13,043 nt of DNA from Prevotella sp. UBA4341 (GTDB lineage Bacteria; Bacteroidota; Bacteroidia; Bacteroidales; Bacteroidaceae): the NCBI GenBank assembly GCA_002393705.1, contig DGTH01000091.1:1-13043 (forward strand), given 5' to 3'. Of this stretch, positions 2,273 through 13,043 are shown one piece after another. Positions within the stretch are counted from its first letter, which is position 1. Each line of letters opens with the position of its first letter. The notes beneath the pieces are model-generated. The model was not told where the DNA came from, did not search any database, and was given only the letters and a program-made list of their open reading frames with translations. The position numbers and the translations under genes were made by a program.

Positions 2273-4351
2273 TTATCGCTCTTCGCCGATGACTACGCCC
2301 CACGGCTCGATGGTGATGTTCTGGCCCCTGGCGAGGGACTGTTTGTCGAGCAGCGACTGGCTGGCGGGATAGGGCCAGGTGACGGTCTTGGGCTCGTAGG
2401 TGTAATTGAAGAGGTAGTGTATCTGACGACCTTTGGAGTTGGTGCCGGAGCGGAGGATGACGGGGAACTGGTACTGGCGCTCGACGGTGGCGATGCCTTT
2501 GCGGTCGGCAGCACGGGCGATGAGTTTATATAGGAGGTCGGTAGATGGCACGGTGCCGATGTAGATGAGGTGGCCCTTGCCGTACTGGTTCTCCGTGATG
2601 CAGGGCCACTGGCCGAAGAACTGGTGCTCGACGGTGGCTAAGGGCTGGGCCGTGGTCAGTTGCAGGAACTCCATCCAGGTATTGGCGGTATTGTCTGCGG
2701 CTCCGATGCCGTTGGGCTTCAACGGCAGTTTGTTGATGCTCGAATACTCCTGATAGGTGAACCCACAGGCTTCGGCCAGCGGACCGGGAGCCAGCACGGG
2801 GCGCACGGCATTGTCGTAGTCGGTGTAGCCGCTCTTGAAGAGCATCACCACTTCGCCGCCCTCGCGAACGAAGTCACTGATTTTCCGCAGCAGTTCGTCG
2901 GTGGCCACATAGAGCGAGGGCACCACGAGCAGGTCGTACTGCGAGAAGTCCTGCATCTCGGGCTTATCGACGGACAGGATGTCGCACTCGATGTTCTGAC
3001 GGTAGAGCGCGTCGTACATCATGTTCACCTTGTATTGGTCGCGGTCGGTGTAGGGCATGAAGTCGAGGGCGTGCTTCGAGTCGTGACTGAACAGTAGGGC
3101 TACGCGGTTCCGCTTCTTCAGGTTCACCAGTCGGTCGCCAATCTTCTCCAACTCCTTGGCACCCTTTTGGAATTCCCGATAGACGCGGTTGGGCTTACCG
3201 TCGTGACCGAGGATGCCGCGCCAGTAGGTCTCCTGACCGTAGTGCAGCGTGCTCCAGTGCCAGTATTCCACCATGTTCGCACCGCCCGAGAGGAAGGCGT
3301 ACATGTTCTGACGCAACTGCCCGTCGTAGGGGGGCCACTGGTTGCGGCTCGACCAGCCCGTGCCTTGGGCGTTGGTCTCGGTGATGAGGAAGTTGTGGCT
3401 GCGGCTGACGGTGCGCATGAAGTCGCACGAGTAACTGATCCATTGTCCGTCCTGTCCGTTCTGCATCGTGTAATAGACGTTGATGGCGGGGTACTCCATC
3501 TGCCGGAATGCCTCCACCTGGTCGATGTCGTAGAAACTGGGCATGAAGCAGTGCATGATGAACTGGTCCGGGCGCTTGTACTCGCTCACGATGTCGGCCT
3601 GCCAGTTCAGGAAGTCGGCCGTCACCTTGCGGTTCCAGCGCTCCCACCACACCTTATACGAGGGGTTCGTCACGCCCTTGCGGTCGTAGAAGTCCTCCCA
3701 GCGGTTGATGTTCATGCCCCAGTAGTTCAGTCCCCAGCGGCGGTTCAGTTCCTTCAGGTCGCCACCGAACTCCTGCCTGATATACTCGCGGAAGCCCTCG
3801 AAGTAGTCGGGGTTGTCAATCTTGCGCGCCTCCACCTCGTTATCCACCTGATAGCCGATGATGGCGGGGTGCTGTGCGTAGTGCTCCATCATCTTGCGGA
3901 TGATGCGCTCCGAGTAGCGGCGGTAGGTGGCGTTCAGCAGGTCCATGTTCTGTCGGATGCCGTAGTGGCTCTGCTTGCCGTCCCATGTCTGCGACAGCAC
4001 CTCGGGGTGCTCTGCTGCCAGCCACGACGGGATACTGTAGGTCGGCGTGCCGAGGATGACCTTGATGCCCGCCTTGTGCAGCGCGTCGATGATGCGGTCC
4101 ATCCAGGCGAACTCAAACTGCCCGTCCTGTGGCTCGAAGAGCGACCATGTCGATTCGCCCACGCGCACCACCGTCAGTCCCGCCTCCTTCATCAGCCGGA
4201 TGTCCTCGTCGAGCCGGTCCGTCGGCGTGTATTCCGCATAGTACGCAGCACCATACAGCGGTTTGTCAAACTGGTACACCTTGTTCTCTCCCTGAGCAGA
4301 GGCCGTCATCGTGAGCAGCCATCCTGCCATCATCAGCAATACTTTTTTCAT
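2273..4351 (-). CDS. Secreted GH42-family beta-galactosidase
   Basis: A 692-residue enzyme that should hydrolyse terminal beta-galactosides from oligo- or polysaccharides outside the cytoplasm. A cleavable signal peptide is seen at residues 1-19 (MKKVLLMMAGWLLTMTASA). The GH42 layout is clear: a TIM barrel at about 28-400 starting 'PLYGAAYYAEYTP', with 'EAGLTVVRVGESTWSLFEP' (56-74), the acid/base glutamate in 'YQVDNE' (E172) and the nucleophile in 'LITETNAQG' (E325). Then 'EYWHWSTLHYG' is a conserved late barrel strand, followed by a flavodoxin-like trimerisation domain (about 412-620, 'VALLFSHDS...DLLVVPSLYV') and a small beta C-domain ending at 'EPWGVVIGEE'. Length and order are normal for GH42. 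It is a single-gene unit on the minus strand with its own promoter just upstream and a terminator downstream. The exact galactoside substrate cannot be told from sequence. Confidence 0.92.
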   Translation of the reverse strand: MKKVLLMMAGWLLTMTASAQGENKVYQFDKPLYGAAYYAEYTPTDRLDEDIRLMKEAGLTVVRVGESTWSLFEPQDGQFEFAWMDRIIDALHKAGIKVILGTPTYSIPSWLAAEHPEVLSQTWDGKQSHYGIRQNMDLLNATYRRYSERIIRKMMEHYAQHPAIIGYQVDNEVEARKIDNPDYFEGFREYIRQEFGGDLKELNRRWGLNYWGMNINRWEDFYDRKGVTNPSYKVWWERWNRKVTADFLNWQADIVSEYKRPDQFIMHCFMPSFYDIDQVEAFRQMEYPAINVYYTMQNGQDGQWISYSCDFMRTVSRSHNFLITETNAQGTGWSSRNQWPPYDGQLRQNMYAFLSGGANMVEYWHWSTLHYGQETYWRGILGHDGKPNRVYREFQKGAKELEKIGDRLVNLKKRNRVALLFSHDSKHALDFMPYTDRDQYKVNMMYDALYRQNIECDILSVDKPEMQDFSQYDLLVVPSLYVATDELLRKISDFVREGGEVVMLFKSGYTDYDNAVRPVLAPGPLAEACGFTYQEYSSINKLPLKPNGIGAADNTANTWMEFLQLTTAQPLATVEHQFFGQWPCITENQYGKGHLIYIGTVPSTDLLYKLIARAADRKGIATVERQYQFPVILRSGTNSKGRQIHYLFNYTYEPKTVTWPYPASQSLLDKQSLARGQNITIEPWGVVIGEER

Positions 4352-4373: not shown

Positions 4374-4405
4374 CAAAGATACTACATTATTATTATATTG
4401 CCAAA
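4374..4405 (-). promoter_or_regulatory. Bacteroidetes-type promoter of the GH42 gene
   Basis: On the minus strand the -7 element TATCTTTG (complement of 4374-4381) matches TAnnTTTG exactly. A TTTG (complement of 4402-4405) lies 20 bases upstream, as expected for the -33 element of the Bacteroidetes primary sigma factor. Transcription would start near 4368, giving a leader of about 17 bases before the ATG at 4351. Confidence 0.75.
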
Positions 4406-4431: not shown

Positions 4432-4463
4432 TGTTACAAATGAATAGCCATGCGTTACAGATG
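4432..4463 (+). promoter_or_regulatory. Operator copy 1 (21-bp-spaced direct repeat)
   Basis: Two direct repeats, GTTACAAATG (4433-4442) and GTTACAGATG (4454-4463), start exactly 21 bp apart and are joined by AATAGCCATGC. The whole 32-bp element is identical to 7971-8002 and recurs diverged at 9427-9463. It lies 50 bp upstream of the GH42 -7 element but in the opposite orientation to that gene, and about 90 bp upstream of the -7 element of the toxin-antitoxin-like module. A 21-bp direct repeat is the geometry of AraC-family binding sites. Confidence 0.7.
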
Positions 4464-4552
4464 GAGAGCAGGCTTTGGTCGGAAACATACAATTCCACCC
4501 GCCTTTTTGCACTTTTAACGCCCCGATTGCATCAAGTTTCCGAAAAAAGTTG

Positions 4553-4560
4553 TACCTTTG
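4553..4560 (+). promoter_or_regulatory. -7 element of the 56-aa protein/GNAT module
   Basis: TACCTTTG matches the TAnnTTTG consensus, 31 bases before the ATG at 4592. A weak TTG (4527-4529) upstream could serve as the -33 element, though the spacing is slightly long. Transcription would start near 4567. Confidence 0.65.
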
Positions 4561-4591
4561 CAGCCGTTATAACATTAAATACGTATTTATC

Positions 4592-4762
4592 ATGGCAAGA
4601 CCAATCAGAGAAACCCCCGTGTTGAAGGGTGAGGATGCCTTCAACTTCGAGATGCGAAGGCTGGAGGTGGAGAACAGGACACCTGAGGAGCGTGCCGAGG
4701 CTCGCAGGAAGTTTCAGGAGCAAGTTGCCGAGGCAAGTAAACATATTCAATGGTGCTGGTAG
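4592..4762 (+). CDS. Putative antitoxin, 56 residues, upstream of GNAT toxin
   Basis: A short charged cytosolic protein beginning 'MARPIRETPVLKGEDAFNF' with a helical, Glu/Arg-rich middle ('RRLEVENRTPEERAEARRK', residues 22-40) and ending 'HIQWCW'. It has its own promoter 31 bases upstream and its stop is three bases before the start of the GNAT gene, a typical antitoxin-toxin arrangement. The expected antitoxin for GNAT toxins is a ribbon-helix-helix DUF1778 protein of about 90 residues. This one is shorter and I see no RHH motif, so it would be a different antitoxin type. The 'MARPI.ETP.L.G.DA' opening looks like a recurrent Bacteroidales family. The antitoxin role is inferred from context only. 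Confidence 0.7.
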   Translation: MARPIRETPVLKGEDAFNFEMRRLEVENRTPEERAEARRKFQEQVAEASKHIQWCW

Positions 4763-4765
4763 GCT

Positions 4766-5278
4766 ATGCAACTCGTTCCCCTTACGCCCGACTATCCGCT
4801 CGCCGCCTTTGACTGTGGCGACGATGACCTCAACAGGTTCCTGCTCGACGATGCCAAGCACGCGCAGGAACTTCGCATTGCCAATACGTTCATTCTTGAA
4901 GACGAAGGACGTATTGCCGCTTATTTCTGTCTGCTGAACGACCGAATCAGTCGCAGCGAGATTACTGGCAGCCGATGGAAGAAGATTCGGGCGAAGTTCC
5001 CCGTCAGCAAGCAGTTCCGCAGTTATCCCTGCATCAAGGTCGGGCGCTTTGCCGTTTCCGTGGACTATCGCGGGCAGAGCGTTGGAACTTGGCTGATGAA
5101 CAAGTTGAAGGAGCGGCTCAATGTCGGCCAGAATCAATCTGCTTTCCGATACATTACCGTCGATGCATATTTGTCGGCCATAGAGTTTTACCGCAAGAAC
5201 GGTTTCCAAGAACTCACCAAGAAAGAAGAAGACGAACATACTCGGCTTATGTTCTTCGATATGATGGATGTAGAATAA
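4766..5278 (+). CDS. GNAT-family N-acetyltransferase, toxin-like
   Basis: A 170-residue acetyl-CoA-dependent acetyltransferase of the GNAT fold. The N-terminal 'FDCGDDDLNRFLLDDA' (residues 15-30) is the hallmark of the TacT/AtaT-like toxin branch, whose characterised members acetylate aminoacyl-tRNA and stop translation. The acetyl-CoA-binding motif A is 'VGRFAVSVDYRGQSVGTWLM' (92-111), with the R/Q-x-x-G-x-G/A-type loop at R102-G107. The C-terminal 'AIEFYRKNGFQEL' (138-150) carries the tyrosine (Y142) used as general acid in this branch. Length is normal. It lies three bases behind a small antitoxin-like gene. It could instead be a non-toxic GNAT acting on another amine, but size, signature and context favour a toxin. 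Confidence 0.85.
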   Translation: MQLVPLTPDYPLAAFDCGDDDLNRFLLDDAKHAQELRIANTFILEDEGRIAAYFCLLNDRISRSEITGSRWKKIRAKFPVSKQFRSYPCIKVGRFAVSVDYRGQSVGTWLMNKLKERLNVGQNQSAFRYITVDAYLSAIEFYRKNGFQELTKKEEDEHTRLMFFDMMDVE

Positions 5279-5595
5279 TCCCTTTCCCCCATGCCCCACA
5301 GAGAGTTAAATAATCATAACACAGCGAAAAAGAATGGCTATTTTCTTGGTCATTCCGATAATTTGATTACTCTCTCCTCTCTCTCTCAGGCGCTCGCCTA
5401 TAAGAGGTAACAACACCTATTATTTTACGCGCGGGTTGCCCGCGTCAATATACGGCTTTTCTTGTATTCACGCAAGAGAAGCCGGCTTGTTTTTTGTCCC
5501 CGTCGGACGACGGCGGCGGAGACGGCGACAGCGAGAAGGAATAACAATTTTCTAAACTCACATTTATAAATCATTCAAACAAAACATTCAAGAAC
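5279..5595. other. Gene-free stretch with hairpins and an orphan coding tail
   Basis: No complete gene is seen in these 317 bases. The stretch contains a pyrimidine-rich run (about 5371-5390), a perfect 6-bp hairpin CGCGGG/CCCGCG with a 3-base loop (5430-5444), the rho-independent terminator at 5453-5495, and a GC-rich open tail (5500-5544) reading 'PSDDGGGDGDSEKE' then stop with no start codon. No TAnnTTTG element with correct spacing was found between the terminator and the next gene, so the promoter of the lipoprotein unit is not identified. Confidence 0.6.
5453..5495 (+). terminator. Rho-independent terminator
   Basis: A 12-bp stem, CGGCTTTTCTTG (5453-5464) with CAAGAGAAGCCG (5473-5484), has one wobble pair and an 8-base loop. 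It is followed by a run of six T (5490-5495). It lies 175 bp after the GNAT gene and 100 bp before the next start. It may end the toxin-antitoxin transcript, or act as an attenuator for the lipoprotein unit. Confidence 0.8.
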
Positions 5596-5730
5596 ATGAA
5601 AAGAAAAGACTATCAGAAACCGACGATGAATGTCGTCCAGTTGCAACATCAGACGCACCTGCTGGCTGGCAGCGGCGTACAGTCCATGCGCTCGGGCTAT
5701 GGTGAGGCGCAAGAAGAAGATTGGGAATAA
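5596..5730 (+). CDS. YQKPTM-type micro-protein, 44 residues
   Basis: A 44-codon ORF starting MKRKDYQKPTMNVVQLQ, with 'THLLAGSGVQ' (residues 20-29) and an acidic C-terminus 'GEAQEEDWE'. From memory, the 'Y.KPTM.vv.lq...lLaGS' pattern recurs as short hypothetical proteins throughout Prevotella and Bacteroides, often beside surface-protein genes. The function is unknown to me. There is no hydrophobic signal peptide or membrane segment. The conserved core followed by a variable glycine/acidic tail resembles a leader-plus-core peptide precursor, but no modification gene is nearby. The stop is immediately followed by the ribosome-binding site of the lipoprotein gene, 13 bp before its ATG, so the two are probably cotranscribed and perhaps translationally coupled. 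Confidence 0.7.
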   Translation: MKRKDYQKPTMNVVQLQHQTHLLAGSGVQSMRSGYGEAQEEDWE

Positions 5731-5735
5731 GGAGG
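5731..5735 (+). promoter_or_regulatory. Strong Shine-Dalgarno of the lipoprotein gene
   Basis: GGAGG directly follows the micro-protein stop codon (5728-5730) and lies eight bases before the ATG at 5744. Such a perfect site is unusual in Bacteroidetes and decides the start at 5744 over the frame-open codons further upstream. Confidence 0.75.
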
Positions 5736-5743
5736 ACTCGACA

Positions 5744-7357
5744 ATGAAGAAGAACATCCTTACTATGGCCGCCCTGCTGATGGCATCGGCCGCAGTGTTT
5801 ACCGCCTGCTCAAGCGACGACAACATTATAGAAGAAAAGCCCGTGAACCCTACGGAGCCGAAAACGTACACCATGACCATCCAGGCATCGAAGTCCACTG
5901 GCGACGATTCGCAAACCCGCGGCCTCTCCTGGAATGATCCCAACACGTACGATAAGATAAATGTGTACTGGCACGAGGGCGAAGAAGTAAGAGTGGTGCA
6001 GAACGGATCGGTGGTCGGCACGCTGACCTCTAAAGAAAGCGACAACGGTTCGACCACCCTCAGCGGCACGCTGACCGGCGTAACACAGGATGCCGACCTG
6101 CAGTTCTTCCTCCATGCCGACGAAAACTGCAAGATGGACTACACCGGACAGCATGGAGGCGTGGTGAAGACGAACGATGATGACGGCAACATCGAGTATA
6201 ACTACGACTTCGCCGAGGCTACGCTCACGAAAACTCAATTCCGCCTGAACACAGACGGCACCATCACCAATATGGACAATTCCGTGGTCACCTTCACAAG
6301 TTGCCAGGCCATCGTCCGCTTCGAACTATTCAACAGCGATGGCTCCGCGAATGTCTATGCCAAGAAACTGATTATCTCGGATGCCAATACGGGCAAGATT
6401 GTCAAGAGCATCGACGGACTCACAGGAGAGAAGACCTACGGTCCTCTGACCTACTCGCCGTATGCTGTTACTACGGGTGGCCAGTCGTGCATCTTCACCA
6501 TGGCCCTGAATGTCGGCGCAGATGCCACCATCGTGCTCGATGCCATCGATAACGAGGGCAACGTCTTTGCTTACAACCGCTCCCATGTGACATTCACTCC
6601 CGGCAAATACTACAAGGTGAAGGTGAAAATGACCGAACGCACGCTGAAGTTCATAGATCAGATCACGCCCGAGGATACGTATCTCAAGGGATGGTATGTG
6701 GATCAATACGCTCATGTCACGAAGACGTATGATGCCAGCAGCTGCTATGCCGTCGTCGCCTACGTGGGCAAGGTGGACCACTACTTCGACAGATTCATAG
6801 CCATAGGTCTGACCAATGCCAAGGAGGATGGTACGAGCGGCAGTGAACAGATGAAATGGAGTAAGGCTCTGACGGCAGCTTACAACTACGACGATAAGCA
6901 CCATGTCTATCAAATCTCCAGCACTCAAAGCACCAATGCCTACGATGTAGTGAGCAATGACAAAGACGTATCCTCTCTTACTGCCACAGGCGATGCCCAG
7001 AAGGGTTGGCGACTGCCCAGCGTCACCGACTGGAGATACATCATCGAAGGACTGGCCGGTGTCAGTGCTACCAATCCCGTCGGTATTAAAGCTCCCATGT
7101 CTGATTCTGATATTCAATTTCCAGAGACGTTGTTAGGAACCCTTAACACATACAATTTAAATCTGCAGAATGTATATTATTGGAGTAGTTCGGACATTAA
7201 TACAAACACCAATTATGCATGGTACTTCCTGCCCCATAATAGACAGACAAGTGACGATCCCGTTGTGATTGAACGCCGAGGATTCCATTATACTGATGGT
7301 GTCAGTACAAAGGAAAGCAAGGCCAATCGCTACGTTCGTCCCGTGTTCGCCTACTGA
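5744..7357 (+). CDS. Fimbrillin-like lipoprotein with C-type-lectin-like C-terminus
   Basis: A 537-residue surface lipoprotein, probably a pilus tip or adhesin component. The signal peptide ends in the lipobox 'VFTAC' with the lipidated cysteine at residue 22, followed by 'SSDD'. Residues about 40-300 are a beta-rich fimbrillin-like region: 'KTYTMTIQASKSTGDDSQTRGLSW' is the usual opening, and 'FTPGKYYKVKVKM' (284-296) its usual closing strand. Residues about 312-537 form a second domain with 'YVDQYAHVTKTYDASSCYAVVAYVG' (318-342), 'GWRLPSVTDW' (421-430), 'YYWSSSD' (478-484) and 'RYVRPVFAY' (529-537). This is the FISUMP/DUF1566-like pattern of C-type-lectin-fold proteins. The last third is strikingly AT-rich (18 of 60 G+C at 7141-7200 against 31 of 60 at 6541-6600), suggesting domain exchange. 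Ligand unknown. Confidence 0.82.
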   Translation: MKKNILTMAALLMASAAVFTACSSDDNIIEEKPVNPTEPKTYTMTIQASKSTGDDSQTRGLSWNDPNTYDKINVYWHEGEEVRVVQNGSVVGTLTSKESDNGSTTLSGTLTGVTQDADLQFFLHADENCKMDYTGQHGGVVKTNDDDGNIEYNYDFAEATLTKTQFRLNTDGTITNMDNSVVTFTSCQAIVRFELFNSDGSANVYAKKLIISDANTGKIVKSIDGLTGEKTYGPLTYSPYAVTTGGQSCIFTMALNVGADATIVLDAIDNEGNVFAYNRSHVTFTPGKYYKVKVKMTERTLKFIDQITPEDTYLKGWYVDQYAHVTKTYDASSCYAVVAYVGKVDHYFDRFIAIGLTNAKEDGTSGSEQMKWSKALTAAYNYDDKHHVYQISSTQSTNAYDVVSNDKDVSSLTATGDAQKGWRLPSVTDWRYIIEGLAGVSATNPVGIKAPMSDSDIQFPETLLGTLNTYNLNLQNVYYWSSSDINTNTNYAWYFLPHNRQTSDDPVVIERRGFHYTDGVSTKESKANRYVRPVFAY

Positions 7358-7370
7358 TTCTGATAATGTA

Positions 7371-7475
7371 CAGAGGGTAACCCTCTGAGCTCACAAGGTG
7401 TCTGACACTTTGTGAGGCCAGTGACAAACCACGGAGGGCGGCACCGGAAGCCACGGCGAACGGACGCCGCCCTCC
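7371..7475 (+). other. Three consecutive hairpins after the lipoprotein gene
   Basis: First hairpin: CAGAGGG/CCCTCTG with a 3-base loop (7371-7387). Second: CTCACAAGGTGT (7390-7401) with ACACTTTGTGAG (7405-7416), 12 bp with one wobble. Third: GGAGGGCGGC (7433-7442) with GCCGCCCTCC (7466-7475), a perfect 10 bp. None is followed by a good T-run, so they look like mRNA 3'-end stabilising or processing structures rather than simple terminators. They start 13 bases after the lipoprotein stop. Confidence 0.7.
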
Positions 7476-7489
7476 CTTTCTCTCTAAAG

Positions 7490-7699
7490 CCTCTCTGCCG
7501 CGAGCGGTGCTACTTGGAGGGCAGGACGATGCCTCTCCGCCGCGAGCGATGCTACTTGGAGGACAGGACGGTGCATCTCTGCCGCGAGCGGTGCTACCGG
7601 GAGGACAGGAACAAGCCTCTCCGCCGCGAGCGGTGCTACTTGGAGGACAGGAACATGCCTCTCCGCCGTGAGCGGTGCTACTATGAGATAAGGAAATGA
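7490..7699. repeat. Five 42-bp tandem repeats (minisatellite)
   Basis: Five consecutive 42-bp units begin at 7490, 7532, 7574, 7616 and 7658. The most conserved part of each is GCCGCGAGCGGTGCTAC followed by a GGAGGACAGGA segment. Units 2 and 4 differ at only a few positions, and unit 5 decays at its 3' side. Within a unit CCGC/GCGG and the outer CCTC/GAGG can pair. Both strands stay open across the array because 42 is a multiple of three, but neither open frame has an ATG start or recognisable protein features, so I treat it as non-coding. Confidence 0.85.
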
Positions 7700-7735
7700 C
7701 AACTTTTCGTATTGTATAACTAAAAACAGAAGATT

Positions 7736-7831
7736 ATGGCACAGAAAACACTGACGACGAGCTATCTGGCTCAACTGACTAACGCCAATCACGACGGCGT
7801 GACCCAGCAGATTCTTGCGTCCTTTCAGTAG
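7736..7831 (+). CDS. 31-residue ORF, possible gene remnant
   Basis: ATG at 7736 gives 'MAQKTLTTSYLAQLTNAN' through 'QQILASFQ' and a stop. It looks like the helical N-terminus of a longer cytosolic protein that has lost its body. No continuation was found in the other frames after the stop. It lies after the 42-bp repeats and 77 bp before a strong terminator. I do not recognise the family. It could be a genuine micro-protein or the stub of a deleted gene. Confidence 0.35.
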   Translation: MAQKTLTTSYLAQLTNANHDGVTQQILASFQ

Positions 7832-7907
7832 CAAGCGTCACCCTTCGGGATGCCGAGCGGACGACCGTGACGAGTAATCGTGGCTGAATAAATCAACTGC
7901 ATATTAT

Positions 7908-7955
7908 AACGCTGCCCGAATGTCGGTAAAACGATGTTCGGGCAGCGTTTCTTTT
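7908..7955 (+). terminator. Rho-independent terminator
   Basis: A perfect 13-bp stem, AACGCTGCCCGAA (7908-7920) with 7937-7949, extends by five inner pairs (7921-7925 with 7932-7936) to 18 bp with loop GTAAAA. It is followed by TTTCTTTTG. It closes the lipoprotein/repeat unit just before operator copy 2 and so insulates the hydrolase cluster. Confidence 0.88.
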
Positions 7956-7970
7956 GTCTGCCTGCCATCG

Positions 7971-8002
7971 TGTTACAAATGAATAGCCATGCGTTACAGA
8001 TG
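7971..8002 (+). promoter_or_regulatory. Operator copy 2 (21-bp-spaced direct repeat)
   Basis: Half-sites GTTACAAATG (7972-7981) and GTTACAGATG (7993-8002) start 21 bp apart. The full 32 bp is identical to 4432-4463. The second half-site starts 36 bp before the -7 element of the downstream hydrolase gene and the site ends where a -33 element would lie, the position of an activator touching RNA polymerase. Confidence 0.78.
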
Positions 8003-8028
8003 AAGATGCGGACGTGCGGGTAATACCT

Positions 8029-8036
8029 TACTTTTG
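8029..8036 (+). promoter_or_regulatory. -7 element of the trehalase-like hydrolase gene
   Basis: TACTTTTG matches TAnnTTTG. No TTTG-like -33 element is seen 19-21 bases upstream, in keeping with dependence on an activator bound at 7971-8002. The leader to the ATG at 8075 is about 33 bases. Confidence 0.72.
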
Positions 8037-8074
8037 CATCCGAGAATGAATAATAACTAAAACGATTAGAGACT

Positions 8075-9364
8075 ATGCAGAAAATGAAATTCAAGATTTG
8101 TTTGTTCGTGCTGCTGGCAGTGGCATCCGTAGCACAGGGACAGTCGTTCCGCGACATTGAGGGACTGAAAGAGATGCGTAAGGATTTGCAGACGGAGGAC
8201 TCGCTGATGCGCTTGGGCATCCTGAAGGACGAGGCCACGGGACTGCCTTACTTCACGGGCTATAGTTACAACGTGCTGTACGACTGGGACCAGTATTTCG
8301 AGGCCATCGTGCAGATTTACATGGGTTGGTCGTCGGAGTATATCAAGAACGGCGTGCTGCTGTTCCTGCAAAACCAGCGCGAGGACGGTTTTATTGCCCG
8401 GTCGGTGCCCTCCAACCCGTCGCACGACAACGAGCACGTCAAGCCCTTCCTCTCGCAGATAGCACTCCTTGCCGTGCAGGAGTATGGCGAGAAAGACTGG
8501 ATTCTGGAGAAGAACACCTTTGAGCGACTGAAGAAATACCTGGACTACTGGCTCGTGAACATGGACGAGGACGGCAACGGACTGAGCGAGTGGATGTCGG
8601 CGCCGCATACGGGCATGGACAACCAGCACGAGCGTGCCGGATGGTGGCTCGACCGCTGTTCGGAGGGTGTTGACCTGAACTGCTACTTAGTGCGCGAGAT
8701 GAAGGCGTTTGCCCGACTTGCCGAGATGGCAGGGAAAAAGAAGATGGCCGCTGACTACCGCAAGAAGAGTGCCGAACTGGCCGAGCGTATCCGCACGATG
8801 CTTTGGGACGAGGAGGACGGCTTTTACTATGACCGCCGTCATACACCCGACTACTGGTTTGCCAAGAGTGCCGCCGTCGTGGCCGACGTGAACATCCAGA
8901 AGTGGAAGAAGAAGGACCTGATACCCGTGCGCTCGGTGGGAGCGTTTGCCGTGCTGTGGTCGGAAGTCGCCACACCCGAGCAGGCTACCCGCATGGTACG
9001 CGACTATCTGTTCAACCCCAAGGAGTTCTGGACGGGAGCCCCCGTTGCCGCCCTGTCGCGGTCGTGCCCGTGGTACACCACCACCAAGTATTCGTCGGAC
9101 ATCGGCTGCGGCTGGCGTGCCAATGCCTGGATTCCCACCAACTACATGATTTATCACGGCCTGCGCTACTACGGCATGAAGGAGTACGCCTCACTGTTGG
9201 CCCACTACACCACCAAACTGGTCCGTGAGAACGGCAACCGTGAATACTACAACTCCGAGACGGGCGAGGGCTGCGGTCTCGACCCCTTCTGGGGCTGGAG
9301 CCTGCTGGGGCACTTCTGCGAGTTTGAAGACACTCAAGAGGAGGACATTACAATAATACATTAA
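8075..9364 (+). CDS. Secreted (alpha/alpha)6-barrel glycoside hydrolase, trehalase/GH63-like
   Basis: A 429-residue exported hydrolase. The start at 8075 adds three residues. An ATG at 8084 (MKFKICLFVLLAVASVAQGQ) gives a cleaner signal peptide, cleaved near residue 20-23, and is equally possible. The body is a helical-hairpin barrel resembling GH37/GH63 (MGH1-like) enzymes: 'YSYNVLYDWDQYFEAI' (63-78), 'FLQNQREDGFI' (97-107), 'GLSEWMSAPHTGMDN' (169-183, with D182 the likely catalytic acid), 'GFYYDRR' (249-255), 'GCGWRANAWIPTNYMIYHGL' (344-363) and 'NREYYNSETGEGCG' (388-401, with E390 the likely base), then 'DPFWGWSLLG'. It is shorter than true trehalases, so the domain is nearly alone. It should release a monosaccharide with inversion. 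Trehalose, alpha-glucoside or rhamnoside-type substrates cannot be separated by eye. It has its own operator and promoter. Confidence 0.75.
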   Translation: MQKMKFKICLFVLLAVASVAQGQSFRDIEGLKEMRKDLQTEDSLMRLGILKDEATGLPYFTGYSYNVLYDWDQYFEAIVQIYMGWSSEYIKNGVLLFLQNQREDGFIARSVPSNPSHDNEHVKPFLSQIALLAVQEYGEKDWILEKNTFERLKKYLDYWLVNMDEDGNGLSEWMSAPHTGMDNQHERAGWWLDRCSEGVDLNCYLVREMKAFARLAEMAGKKKMAADYRKKSAELAERIRTMLWDEEDGFYYDRRHTPDYWFAKSAAVVADVNIQKWKKKDLIPVRSVGAFAVLWSEVATPEQATRMVRDYLFNPKEFWTGAPVAALSRSCPWYTTTKYSSDIGCGWRANAWIPTNYMIYHGLRYYGMKEYASLLAHYTTKLVRENGNREYYNSETGEGCGLDPFWGWSLLGHFCEFEDTQEEDITIIH

Positions 9365-9426
9365 ATATTTATATAGAAGACTTTCATTCGGATATGGTAA
9401 GGAAGTCCTAGGCATTTGGTATAAAG

Positions 9427-9463
9427 GATTCAAATGAATAGCCTCGCGTTACAAATGAATATG
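9427..9463 (+). promoter_or_regulatory. Operator copy 3, diverged
   Basis: Half-sites GATTCAAATG (9427-9436) and GTTACAAATG (9448-9457) are again 21 bp apart with spacer AATAGCCTCGC, eight of whose eleven bases match copies 1 and 2. The second half-site continues as AATATG, matching the first half-site of copy 1 for 14 bases (GTTACAAATGAATA). It starts 36 bp before the -7 element, exactly as in copy 2. Confidence 0.75.
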
Positions 9464-9483
9464 TCTGTATAAAAAAGAATGCT

Positions 9484-9491
9484 TAACTTTG
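9484..9491 (+). promoter_or_regulatory. -7 element of the GH43-GH5 operon
   Basis: TAACTTTG matches TAnnTTTG. There is no recognisable -33 element at the expected distance and the operator half-site sits there instead. The leader to the ATG at 9520 is about 23 bases. Confidence 0.75.
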
Positions 9492-9519
9492 CAGGCGGAA
9501 ATCAAAAACTAACGAAAAT

Positions 9520-11475
9520 ATGAAACGAATTCTGAACCTTCTACTGCTTTTGATGGCAATGACCTCAAGCACCTTCGCAGCTACTGACGACATTGGATTG
9601 TATGTGAAGGACATCATCATCGGCTGGAACGGTGGCGGCGGCACAAAGGATGTGGAGCACAACGCTTTCTCCTACAACCAGTATGCCGAGAACTATTGGG
9701 ACATCCACGACCTGAGCACCAATGTCTATGACCGGGTGGAGTTCGCCTTTGCCCAGGCTGTGAACTACGACAACATCAACGTTGTGGCCACCTACAGCGA
9801 CGGCAGTGCTACCGAAACCAAGATTACCAAGGGTGCAACGAACCACACCGTGAACTTCGATGCCAACAAGACACTCGTCAAGATTGCCATCACCATCGGT
9901 TGGGACGGTCCCAGTGGTTCGACTACCATCTACTTCAACAGCATCGTTATCCGTGCCAAGGATTCTACTGGTGTTGTCGGTACGATGCCCGTTGGCTCGC
10001 CCAAGTTAGGTAAGGGTATGGCCAATCCGCTGCTCGATTTCCACTACATTGCCGACCCCACGGCCATTGAGTACGACGGTCGCCTCTATGTCTATGGTAC
10101 CAACGACCATCAGCAGTATGAGGCTGGTACACCCACTAACACCTACGAGGCCATCAAGTCGCTCGTCGTCATCTCTACCGACGACATGGTGAACTGGACC
10201 TACCACGGACTGATTGATGTGAAGAGCGTAGCCCCCTGGATCATGGCATCGTGGGCCCCCTCCATCATCAGCCAACCGCAGGCCGACGGCTCCACGCTCT
10301 TCTCGCTCTACTTCTCCAACAGCGGCACGGGTTCTGGCGTCATTCAGGCTACGTCGCCCTTAGGTCCGTGGACATCACCGCTCAACGCCAATCTGACCGA
10401 TGGTTTCGACCCGGGTGCTGTTGTCGATGATAATGGTGATGCATGGCTGGCTTATGGCAACGGAGAGGGCAAGATCGTCAAGCTGGGTGCCGACCTCCAC
10501 TCCATAGCTGCCGGTCCGGTGCTGCCGCCTACGCCCTACCACTTCGAGGCCAACGAGCTGAACTTCATCAACGGCACGTACGTCTATACATATAATAACG
10601 ACTGGAGCAACCACGAGCCGTGGAACTATGGCGGCGAGAAACCTACCGGTTGCAGCATGGTCTATTTCACCAGCAAGACCCCGCTTGATGCTAATTCATG
10701 GACCTACGGCGGCAACTACTTCAAGAACCCCGGTGAGAACGGCATGAACTACGGCAACAACCACACCCACCTGCACAAGTATCAGGGCAAGTGGTACCTG
10801 TTCTACCAGGCCAACAACCTCGAGGCATCCATTGGCACCAACGGCGGCTTTCGCAGCATCTATGTCGATGAGATTGAGGTCGATGAGACGAATGTAATCA
10901 TCAAGGAGTGCAAGCCCACCTTCACGGGCGTGAGTGCCATCAAGACCCTCAATCCCTACGCTGTGCAGTATGCCTCTACCGCTGCCGCCACGCTCGGCAT
11001 TGTTCATGAGCAGGCCGAAGGACAAGGCCATACTGTGGCAAAGGTAGGTACGCCAAACCTGACGGCTCCTGTCCCCACCGAGGGTATCATCGAGGTACGC
11101 AACGTGGAGTTCACTGGCACTGCCAACACACTGAAGTGCCTGCTGAAGGGCAATGGCAGCGTCACCCTGCGCCTTGATGACAAGGACGGCACGGACATCG
11201 CCACTGTCAGCAGCACTGGCGACAGTTGGCAGACTCTTCACTCTTCACTCTTCACTCTTAACTCTGGAACCCATACCGTCTATTTCGTTCTGAAGGGCGA
11301 CGTGCAGTTCGACAAGTGGGTGATGGGCGACGCTTCGCTGACCAGCATCAATGCTATGGTCGAAGGACAAAGGTCAAAGGTCGAAGGTCAATACTACGAC
11401 CTGCAGGGACACCGCGTCAGCAGCCCCACCAAGGGTCTTTACATCGTAAACGGTAAAAAATACATTGTGAAATGA
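9520..11475 (+). CDS. Secreted GH43-CBM6 enzyme (arabinofuranosidase/xylosidase type)
   Basis: A 651-residue modular hydrolase for arabinose- or xylose-containing polysaccharides. Signal peptide at 1-20 (ending TSSTFA). Residues about 22-148 are an unrecognised beta-rich module with repeated aromatic/glycine patches ('IIIGWNGGGGTKD', 'ITIGWDGPSG'), possibly carbohydrate-binding. The five-bladed GH43 propeller spans about 165-465: base D179 in 'YIADPTAIEYDG', pKa modulator D297 in 'GFDPGAVVDD', acid E343 in 'HFEANELNFING', and 'HTHLHKYQGKWYLFYQ' (415-430). A CBM6-like module follows (about 478-603, 'NPYAVQYAS...FDKWVM'). The tail 'YYDLQGHRVSSPTKGLYIVNGKKYIVK' (625-651) resembles a type IX secretion sorting segment. 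Two heptanucleotide repeat tracts lie within the gene. The stop overlaps the GH5 start (ATGA), so the two are coupled. Confidence 0.87.
   Translation: MKRILNLLLLLMAMTSSTFAATDDIGLYVKDIIIGWNGGGGTKDVEHNAFSYNQYAENYWDIHDLSTNVYDRVEFAFAQAVNYDNINVVATYSDGSATETKITKGATNHTVNFDANKTLVKIAITIGWDGPSGSTTIYFNSIVIRAKDSTGVVGTMPVGSPKLGKGMANPLLDFHYIADPTAIEYDGRLYVYGTNDHQQYEAGTPTNTYEAIKSLVVISTDDMVNWTYHGLIDVKSVAPWIMASWAPSIISQPQADGSTLFSLYFSNSGTGSGVIQATSPLGPWTSPLNANLTDGFDPGAVVDDNGDAWLAYGNGEGKIVKLGADLHSIAAGPVLPPTPYHFEANELNFINGTYVYTYNNDWSNHEPWNYGGEKPTGCSMVYFTSKTPLDANSWTYGGNYFKNPGENGMNYGNNHTHLHKYQGKWYLFYQANNLEASIGTNGGFRSIYVDEIEVDETNVIIKECKPTFTGVSAIKTLNPYAVQYASTAAATLGIVHEQAEGQGHTVAKVGTPNLTAPVPTEGIIEVRNVEFTGTANTLKCLLKGNGSVTLRLDDKDGTDIATVSSTGDSWQTLHSSLFTLNSGTHTVYFVLKGDVQFDKWVMGDASLTSINAMVEGQRSKVEGQYYDLQGHRVSSPTKGLYIVNGKKYIVK
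11233..11260 (+). repeat. Heptanucleotide tandem repeat in the CBM6 region
   Basis: ACTCTTC occurs three times in a row (11233-11253), then ACTCTTA (11254-11260) and a partial ACTCTGG. The unit of seven is not a multiple of three, so gain or loss of one copy would frameshift the GH43 gene. It encodes 'TLHSSLFTLNSG' within the CBM6 module. Confidence 0.85.
11359..11390 (+). repeat. Degenerate heptanucleotide repeat before the GH43 C-terminal tail
   Basis: Units of seven, GTCGAAG GACAAAG, then GTCAAAG GTCGAAG, then a partial GTCA, encode the linker 'VEGQRSKVEGQ' immediately before the 'YYDLQG' tail. The unit differs from the tract at 11233 but has the same period. Confidence 0.75.
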
Positions 11476-12836
11476 TGATTAGAGCTTTCTTTTCTGTATT
11501 TTGCCTGTTCCTTGCTCCTGCTGCATGGGCACAGAGCTTCGAGACAGCTACTGAGGCAGTTACCAACATGCGGCTGGGCTGGAACTTGGGCAATACGCTC
11601 GAAAGTAATTCGGGCGACGTTAACAACATGTGGATAGAGCGATACACCTCGCGCCGCCCCTCCGACTACGAGACGGCGTGGGGACAGCCCGTCACCCGGT
11701 CTGAACTTTTCGCTCTCTTCAAGGAGGCTGGTTTCAATGCCATCCGCGTACCCATCACGTGGTATCCCCACATGGAGGCAAAGTTCACGACCAGCCCTTG
11801 GAATCCCGAAACCGATCCCATCGGCACCCAGATACAGGCCGCGTGGATGCAGTGCGTCCATGAAGTAGTTGATTACGTCATCAGTAAGGGTATGTATTGC
11901 ATCATCAATGTCCATCACGACACAGGTACCAGCAACACCCACTGGCTCATTGCCGATGAGACCAACTATGCTCAGGAGCATGAACGCTTCGAGGCCGTGT
12001 GGACCCAGATAGCCAACGAGTTCCGCGACTACGACGAGCACCTGCTCTTTGAGGGCTACAACGAGATGCTCGATGCCAACAACTCCTGGTCGTATGCCTC
12101 GTCGGAGAATGCGGGTAAGTACAGTTCCACAGCAGCATCGGCAGCCTATAATGCCATCAACAGTTATGCCCAGAGCTTCGTCAATGCGGTACGTGCCACT
12201 GGCGGCAACAATGCCCAGCGCAACCTCATTGTCAACACTTACGCCGCCTGCTGCGGCATGGGTACGTGGAACAGCCACCTGCAAGATCCGCTGAAGCAGA
12301 TGCAGTTGCCGACCGACAATGCCAGCGGTCACCTCATCTTCGAGGTACACAGCTACCCCAGTCTCAACAATGGTCTTAACAGCGCCAAGAGCAGCATCGA
12401 CCAGATGATGGCTGCCGTGGAGGCCCACCTCGCCTCGAAGGGCGCACCCGTCATCTTCGGAGAGTGGGGCGTGCCCGATGATGAGAATGAAAACGACTAC
12501 ACCAACAAGAATGCCGACATGCAGGCTTTCGTGCGCTACTTCGTGGAGCAGGCCAAGGCCCGAGGGTTCGGCACCTTCTACTGGATGGGCCTCTCCGACG
12601 GCAATCACCGCAGCGTGCCTGAGTTCAACCAGCCAGACCTCGTTGAGGCAATGGCCAAGGGCTACTACGGCGAAGGCGGATACACCCATATCCCCTCAAT
12701 ACTCAATACTCAACCCACAACCCCCAACCATTATTACGACTTGCAGGGCCGCCAGTCCCAGCGGCCCATGCATGGTCTCAACGTCGTCCGCATGAGCGAC
12801 GGTCTCGTTAGGAAATACGTTAAACTTGAATATTGA
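11472..12836 (+). CDS. Secreted GH5 endoglucanase/xyloglucanase-like enzyme
   Basis: A 454-residue secreted beta-glycanase. Signal peptide at 1-20 (ending PAAWA). The GH5 TIM barrel spans about 22-400: 'LGWNLGNTLES' (35-45, the pattern of GH5_4-like endoglucanases), 'GFNAIRVPITWYPHM' (87-101), 'YCIINVHHDTG' (142-152), acid/base E198 in 'FEGYNEML' (193-200), 'EVHSYPS' (291-297), nucleophile E331 in 'VIFGEWGVP' (328-336), and W371 in 'FYWMGLSDG', the usual substrate-platform tryptophan region. The 'YNEML' in place of the common 'NEP' is a subfamily trait, so I leave the subfamily open. A heptad-encoded Pro/Thr/Asn linker (about 410-419) leads to 'YYDLQGRQSQRPMHGLNVVR', a tail like that of GH43. 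The start overlaps the GH43 stop by four bases, so stoichiometric coexpression is expected. Confidence 0.9.
   Translation: MMIRAFFSVFCLFLAPAAWAQSFETATEAVTNMRLGWNLGNTLESNSGDVNNMWIERYTSRRPSDYETAWGQPVTRSELFALFKEAGFNAIRVPITWYPHMEAKFTTSPWNPETDPIGTQIQAAWMQCVHEVVDYVISKGMYCIINVHHDTGTSNTHWLIADETNYAQEHERFEAVWTQIANEFRDYDEHLLFEGYNEMLDANNSWSYASSENAGKYSSTAASAAYNAINSYAQSFVNAVRATGGNNAQRNLIVNTYAACCGMGTWNSHLQDPLKQMQLPTDNASGHLIFEVHSYPSLNNGLNSAKSSIDQMMAAVEAHLASKGAPVIFGEWGVPDDENENDYTNKNADMQAFVRYFVEQAKARGFGTFYWMGLSDGNHRSVPEFNQPDLVEAMAKGYYGEGGYTHIPSILNTQPTTPNHYYDLQGRQSQRPMHGLNVVRMSDGLVRKYVKLEY
12695..12729 (+). repeat. Heptanucleotide repeat before the GH5 C-terminal tail
   Basis: Five consecutive seven-base units: CTCAATA, CTCAATA, CTCAACC, CACAACC, CCCAACC. 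They encode the linker 'PSILNTQPTTPNH' just before 'YYDLQGRQ'. The first two units are identical and the rest drift, as in a decaying slippage tract. Confidence 0.82.
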
Positions 12837-12861
12837 ACATTCATTTTAATACAAAACGATT

Positions 12862-13043
12862 ATGAAAAAGATTTTTACGCTTATTGCAGCAGCCTTCTTG
12901 GCACTCAGTGCGCAGGCTGCAAGTGACTTAACCCTCAATGCTTCTGAAACAGTTGCCTTCAGCGACTGGGGCTTCGACAACTCTGGCGCACCCACGCTTG
13001 TCTTCGGCAACTGGTCGGCTGGTGGCGGCTGGCAGTTTGCCAC
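12862..13043 (+). CDS. N-terminus of a secreted protein, cut by the window end
   Basis: Sixty codons from the ATG at 12862, open to the end of the window. Signal peptide 'MKKIFTLIAAAFLALSAQA' is cleaved near residue 19. The mature part starts 'ASDLTLNASETVAFSDWGFD' and is rich in Trp, Gly and Thr/Ser ('FGNWSAGGGWQF'), suggesting a beta-sandwich carbohydrate-binding or catalytic module. The 25-bp gap from the GH5 stop, with no promoter seen in between, puts it in the GH43-GH5 operon. It is most likely another polysaccharide-degrading enzyme, but the family cannot be assigned from this fragment. Confidence 0.75.
   Translation, partial: MKKIFTLIAAAFLALSAQAASDLTLNASETVAFSDWGFDNSGAPTLVFGNWSAGGGWQFA

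Follow-up and report, generated by a model that had tools for sequence, protein, structure and literature searches.

Tandem Copies of a Probable Operator in the Window

Which regulator governs the hydrolase genes of this Prevotella locus, and through which DNA element does it act? The window, i.e., the whole stretch of 13,043 nucleotides analyzed here, is the entire contig C12 of Prevotella sp. UBA4341, whose genome assembly (1.93 Mb in 194 contigs) is 62% complete. A tandem element repeated in the window very likely serves as the binding site through which a membrane sugar sensor turns on a plant-fibre-digesting gene set, and relatives seem to have exchanged some gene blocks at these sites, hereafter called operators. 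The elements and genes concerned are as follows.

2273..4351, minus strand: GH42 beta-galactosidase-like gene (an HTCS gene lies directly behind it in four relatives, not in the window)
4433..4463, plus strand: operator copy 1, in the gap upstream of GH42; its right flank is part of an insert
7972..8002, plus strand: operator copy 2, preceding the MGH1-like/GH63-type (trehalase-like) gene
8029..8036, plus strand: -7 element TACTTTTG, 57 bp past the start of operator copy 2
8075..9364, plus strand: MGH1-like/GH63-type hydrolase (trehalase-like), predicted operator target
9427..9457, plus strand: operator copy 3, with GATTCAAATG as first half-site, preceding the GH43-GH5 operon
9484..9491, plus strand: -7 element TAACTTTG, 57 bp past the start of operator copy 3
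9520..11475, plus strand: predicted operator target, a GH43 hydrolase that matches CBM6 weakly
11472..12836, plus strand: GH5 gene, overlapping the GH43 gene; its closest solved relatives are named cellulase/endoglucanase
12858..13043, plus strand: start of a gene like u332 of genome G105 (without Pfam family), probably continued on contig C143

A preliminary description of the window had proposed that a 21-bp direct repeat precedes each of two hydrolase promoters, with the second half-site starting 36 bp before TAnnTTTG. Both repeats were recovered, with half-sites at 7972/7993 and 9427/9448, and TAnnTTTG indeed begins at 8029 and 9484, 36 bp past the start of each second half-site. At 9427, the first half-site, GATTCAAATG, carries two mismatches to the proposed half-site sequence. 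The two elements described are thus real, and a third, at 4433–4463, had been overlooked; its sequence is the same as that of the copy at 7972 across 31 bp, and it lacks TAnnTTTG at 57 bp. When GTTACARATG-N11-GTTACARATG was searched with up to three mismatches, three matches were found in the window against a mean of 0.01 in shuffled windows, and none of 200 shuffled windows reached three.

Repeat Unit and Fixed Distance to the -7 Box

We compiled a curated table of 23 operator copies from nine genomes (eight with G handles plus the named contig L040), which consists of the 22 matches to a refined pattern minus that of G331, plus two L040 copies. The G331 match has three mismatches and no TAnnTTTG within 140 bp; it was left out, as was a C136 match to the originally proposed pattern, also with three mismatches.

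Across these 23 copies, positions 0–16 read GTTACAAATGAATAGCC with little variation, and positions 21–30 repeat GTTACARATG, often followed by A/G-A-T/G-A. Because most positions of the originally proposed N11 spacer are conserved, they belong to the half-site, and the repeat unit is about 17 bp (GTTACARATGAATAGCC) in every 21 bp rather than 10 bp plus N11. The 21-bp period itself stands, and the second copy fits less well past GTTACARATGAATA. With 17-bp sites the spacer shrinks to positions 17–20, of which 17 and 18 are variable (A12/T11 and T13/C10) and 19 and 20 are G and C in most copies (20/23 and 19/23, respectively).

The distance to the promoter is nearly constant. TAnnTTTG lies exactly 57 bp past the element start in 19 of the 23 copies, and GAACTTTG occupies the same offset in two further ones (G105, 15475, and G228). 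In the remaining two, which lie on the GH42 side in the window and in G333, other sequence follows. TTTG at -33 spacing (18–22 bp) before the -7 box was found for two of the 23 copies. Two direct-repeat sites about 21 bp apart and a place upstream of polysaccharide utilization or other glycan-locus operons are features by which operators of hybrid two-component systems (HTCSs) are recognized, and both are present here, with a few targets falling outside glycan families.

Distribution and Target Genes

Scanning the whole genome with the originally proposed pattern (up to three mismatches) gave five matches, one of them weak and located on contig C136. The refined pattern also gave five, three on C12 and two on C143, and TAnnTTTG at 57 bp with an ORF behind it accompanies four of these five copies. 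The opening 25 bp of C143 (L006 1–25) equal the closing 25 bp of the window (13019–13043), and C143 carries on the u332-like frame begun at the window end. On the basis of this overlap and the continued frame, C12 and C143 are probably neighbours and the five copies a single locus. Random scatter, which the preliminary description had named as an outcome contrary to its proposal, was not observed, the copies being confined to the locus or its likely continuation. A stricter pattern was found in 3 of 199 genomes in a first scan, and within the genus the refined pattern in 9 of 398, G331 among them with a poor match; the reversed control pattern had none among the matches listed for the 398 genomes. 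G105 carries six operator copies within about 15 kb.

The genes behind the operators are largely those of a glycan locus. In G105, they comprise MGH1-like, rhamnosidase-like, GH2, u332 and u449 (both without Pfam family), GH43/GH5, GH3, SusC/D, SGBP-B, GH5, GH43, and GH97 genes. On C143, the targets are a Flg_new_2 protein of 792 residues and an ORF of 1049 residues, part of which is GH43-like; a rhamnosidase-like gene comes next. The longer ORF has no Pfam match, yet is 67% identical to the GH43 of the window across 609 residues. The suggested glycan-degradation regulon therefore holds insofar as the element marks genes of glycan-locus type, but it is not exclusive: u332 and u449 of G105 and the Flg_new_2 protein of C143 match no glycan family.

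A Candidate HTCS Regulator Next to GH42

Behind GH42 of G105 lies the gene of an HTCS about 1331 residues long (the listed ORFs overlap by 31 bp); its domains are Reg_prop, Y_Y_Y, HisKA, HATPase_c, receiver, and AraC-type HTH_18. The order GH42 then HTCS was also found in L040, G333, and G408 (91.9, 92.4, and 85.5% identity, respectively), i.e., a cognate orthologue lies beside GH42 in four of the nine operator-bearing genomes. The HTCS copies of L040 and G408 run off the contig end, and the AraC-type HTH is present in both relatives whose HTCS C-terminus is available. The G333 HTCS (L138 4256–8048) is read in two frames, residues 1–577 and 597–1331, which reflects a frame break or an assembly error.

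In the three operator-bearing genomes G049, G461, and G228, no HTCS orthologue was found; GH42 is cut by the contig end in G049 and G461, and the G228 contig is 3 kb long. A search of the genus, in which two candidates were scored per genome, gave HTCS identity of at least 60% for G105 and G333, both operator-bearing, among the matches listed. The G408 fragment is not among these matches, so HTCS fragments may be missed by this search. By protein search, the nearest HTCS-bearing matches are mostly from Prevotella or Prevotellaceae.

The preliminary description had pointed to an HTCS or AraC-type regulator. For the class, this proposal agrees with four relatives, in which an HTCS gene adjoins GH42 and the element, but the cognate protein was not found in the incomplete genome of the window, in which no HTCS exceeds 52% identity (best match on contig C118). 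Behind GH42 in the window, the place is taken by other genes. The region past the GH42 end (344–2153) encodes a DUF2971 protein (PADLOC candidate PDC-S31) and three similar-looking ORFs of about 105 aa.

In G424, whose genome is a single contig and 99% complete, GH42 and its promoter persist together with one operator and its -7 box (L140 11548–13771), yet the operator precedes no clear gene and the best HTCS match reaches 32%. This operator looks like a relic of a decayed locus.

Sister HTCS Loci Share the Spacing

We further analyzed 30 loci of sister HTCS proteins that are 46–54% identical, using 371 TAnnTTTG sites, whether promoters or not. GTTAC occurred sixteen times at offset 57 and ten times at offset 36, compared with a mean of 0.92 per offset. 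In a distant HTCS set, GTTAC gave no clear peak (3 at 57, 0 at 36).

A scan independent of particular letters was also performed over 24–30 periods and about 70 offsets, with locus L092 (a non-Bacteroidota record) left out of the distant set. For 105 promoters of 24 sister loci, period 21 ranked first (5.47 of 14 vs. 4.12, standard deviation 0.29; largest value at other periods 4.93). Among 31 more distant loci (75 promoters), period 21 was again first (5.00 vs. 3.84, standard deviation 0.25; largest value at other periods 4.55). At the top cell for period 21, the second repeat copy lies about 34–45 bp upstream.

The absence of a -33 element had been noted at both window promoters, and neither indeed has TTTG at 18–22 bp, but this is no general rule in sister loci. 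In the nearer set, -33 boxes were found at 7 of 25 repeat-bearing and 27 of 80 other promoters; the distant set gave 1 of 13 and 4 of 62. A missing -33 box, as seen in 21 of the 23 operator copies, was thus rejected as a general mark, the nearer sister set giving it no clear support.

The sister loci also bear on whether a different HTCS of the same genome, for example the 52% identical protein on C118, binds the operators. This protein is the best match in the genome of the window, the sites of its clade likewise begin with GTTAC at offsets 57 and 36, and its first recognition helix is nearly identical to that of the candidate clade (SRVHLHRKMKELTG vs. SRVHLNRKMKDLTG), as is GTTACA in the sites. 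On the other hand, the second helix differs between the clades (such as NSASFST vs. SPTSFSA), in step with the promoter-proximal part of the sister half-sites, which by eye is often AAAGTTT-like and not GAATAGCC. In addition, HTCS matches at E ≤ 1e-300 were found in 169 of 398 genomes, but the operator pattern in 9 of 398. We therefore regard binding by such another HTCS as improbable. Since the first helix and GTTACA are conserved while the second helix and the promoter-proximal half both differ, the comparison would fit an arrangement with one recognition helix for each half of the site.

For this HTCS clade, a simple promoter rule emerges, in which the -7 box is preceded by half-sites at 57 and 36 bp. 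Such a rule could list the genes under related sensors from DNA alone.

Proposed Mode of Regulation

The tandem element is most probably the operator of one HTCS that activates the linked glycan genes. The repeat, its spacing, its restriction to the locus, the linkage to an HTCS in relatives, and the offsets in sister loci are computed results; we infer binding, dimer formation, activation, the ligand, and the identity of the HTCS acting in the genome of the window. In the proposed mechanism, one hybrid two-component system would sense a glycan fragment, possibly xyloglucan-like, in the periplasm. Its AraC-type output domain would dock as a head-to-tail dimer on half-sites repeated every 21 bp, or two helical turns. 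Starting 36 bp before TAnnTTTG, the proximal half-site would cover the place of the -33 element; the bound regulator may recruit RNA polymerase in place of this element, in a class-II-like activation. Counter to this reading are the low HTCS identity in the genome of the window and the other genes behind its GH42, the G424 locus, the operator-bearing genomes without an orthologue, the two copies with TTTG at -33 spacing together with the -33 counts of the nearer sister set, and the lack of a clear GTTAC peak in the distant set. For the plant-glycan locus of these uncultured Prevotella relatives, this provides a specific operator, a target set, and a candidate sensor.

The GH42 gene has a divergent promoter of its own, with the following elements in the window.

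4374..4381, minus strand: -7 element TATCTTTG of this promoter
4402..4405, minus strand: -33 element TTTG of the GH42 promoter, at 20 bp spacing

TTTG-N19/20-TAnnTTTG, directed away from the operator, was present in all eight contigs that include the GH42 side, compared with TTTG at 18–22 bp in two of the 23 operator copies. In these contigs, 50 bp (51 in the window) separate the operator edge from the position at which the GH42 -7 box starts. The GH42-HTCS operon would be read from this promoter, and because it has a normal -33/-7 pair, the sensor may be made before induction. A simple reading is that the regulator is constitutive and its targets inducible. Such a promoter fits the xyloglucan HTCS of Segatella copri, for which the accessible text reports no upregulation (PMC11784079).

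Operators might additionally control the divergent GH42-HTCS promoter, which is compatible with the main reading and would account for the retention of copy 1. The near-constant distance in the eight contigs agrees with such autoregulation, and copy 1 has been kept in the window and in G333 despite the lack of TAnnTTTG at 57 bp. However, the GH42 promoter has its own -33 box, the operator site points away from GH42, and the GH42 block shows 86–95% DNA identity; as the contigs are such close relatives, the retention of copy 1 has little power. Autoregulation appears rather unlikely.

An Insert and Possible Gene Exchange at Operator Edges

Between the first two operator copies, the window contains one further segment.

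4468..7970, no strand: insert between operator copies 1 and 2, with a 56-aa ORF plus GNAT gene, a weakly Lcl_C-like protein, and tandem units

The tandem units are five, of 42 bp each (7489–7698). In G105, L040, G461, and G408, the insert is missing between GH42 and the MGH1-like gene. Window 2280–4467 matches G105 7072–9258, and window 7971–9357 matches G105 9223–10609; the single G105 operator is the counterpart of both window copies, with the 3.5-kb insert between them. In the same place, G333 (L138, G333:C115) has at 10304–12838 a type II restriction enzyme and a methyltransferase (PADLOC models). The ends of the G333 insert match those of the window, at 95% over window 7903–8008, and the left block extends to window 4520. 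The cargo at this putative GH42 seam is the 56-aa ORF and GNAT pair in the window and a type II restriction-modification pair in G333.

Two side observations concern the insert. The 56-aa ORF and GNAT gene form a putative toxin-antitoxin pair, and the left end of the insert (window 4461–4552) is 85% identical over 93 bp to G424 L140 9980–10070, which precedes an ORF of 449 aa that matches no Pfam family.

Gene order also changes at operators elsewhere: G049 has GH43 behind the GH42-side operator instead, and G105 has GH2-operator-u332 compared with GH2-operator-GH43-type gene in L040 and G461. Among all pairs of 11 sequences, we counted the ends of homology blocks (at least 250 bp long) that lie no more than 15 bp from an operator edge in each of the two partners. 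Such ends made up 27 of 106, where about 0.5% of positions qualify. Many other block ends lie inside diverged genes, and some joints, such as those behind the MGH1-like gene, are without operator.

One tentative explanation, to which we give somewhat less than even weight, is that the operators, near-identical and up to six per locus, serve as recombination seams. Crossovers within the 31–36-bp operators could swap promoter-gene cassettes that are prewired to the local sensor, and the GH42 seam could be a landing site for defence-type cargo. The excess of block ends at operator edges is a lead and not proof, since the pairs are non-independent, blocks naturally end in gene gaps, common operators draw block ends to their edges, and many ends fall in diverged genes or at operator-free joints. 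Nothing on point about operators as recombination sites was found in the literature searched. If true, this would help to account for the rebuilding of polysaccharide loci one gene at a time with control kept.

The same data might be read as showing that the element belongs to a mobile or dispersed repeat, its promoter spacing being a by-product of copying. The copies at 4433 and 7972 are identical and stand on both sides of the insert, and many block ends coincide with operator copies. Against this, the genome of the window has no good copy beyond the locus and C143, viral contigs gave no exact matches, the flanks are unlike between most copies, and sister loci have a different sequence at the same offsets. 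This reading, which the preliminary description had itself listed as contrary to its proposal, is very improbable, and we rejected it given the viral-contig result and the confinement to the locus and C143. Control by one HTCS remains the preferred explanation of the element.

Comparison with Known Systems

At the Escherichia coli araBAD promoter, the araI1-I2 site likewise has direct half-sites with a 21-bp period, of which the proximal half-site lies beside the core promoter, and the operator described here is similar to it in this geometry. Unlike this operator, araI1-I2 is bound by a soluble one-component regulator that involves DNA looping, and it acts at a sigma-70 promoter.

With regard to the genes controlled, the XyGUL of Bacteroides ovatus is a xyloglucan utilization locus. 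G105 resembles such loci in having a SusC/D pair, GH5, GH2, GH3, and GH43, and its surface glycan-binding protein (SGBP-B) is closest to BACOVA_02650 (5e7g); in the window itself, SusC/D and SGBP-B were not seen. As no GH31 alpha-xylosidase was found in 20 scanned G105 ORFs (40 of 51.9 kb of the contig), we call the locus XyGUL-like, i.e., xyloglucan-like, only. Unlike XyGUL, G105 adds GH42, GH97, GH63-like, and rhamnosidase-like genes. The xyloglucan system of S. copri provided a second comparison locus (PMC11784079, accessible text).

The operator class is already known, as Ravcheev et al. (2013; PMC3878776) predicted HTCS motifs of this kind. For 16 of 36 Bacteroides thetaiotaomicron HTCSs, the motifs predicted there are direct repeats spaced 21 bp on average, understood as binding a dimer on the same face of the DNA at a distance of two turns. 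A fixed distance between operator and -7 box was not found in the literature passages searched. The element reported here is like the B. thetaiotaomicron operators, as far as these are described there, in placing two direct repeats, spaced about 21 bp, in front of glycan operons, and its 17-bp sites with a 4-bp spacer are similar to their 16-bp sites with a 5-bp spacer. It differs from them in its new sequence, genus, and target set, and in the fixed -7-box offset measured here.
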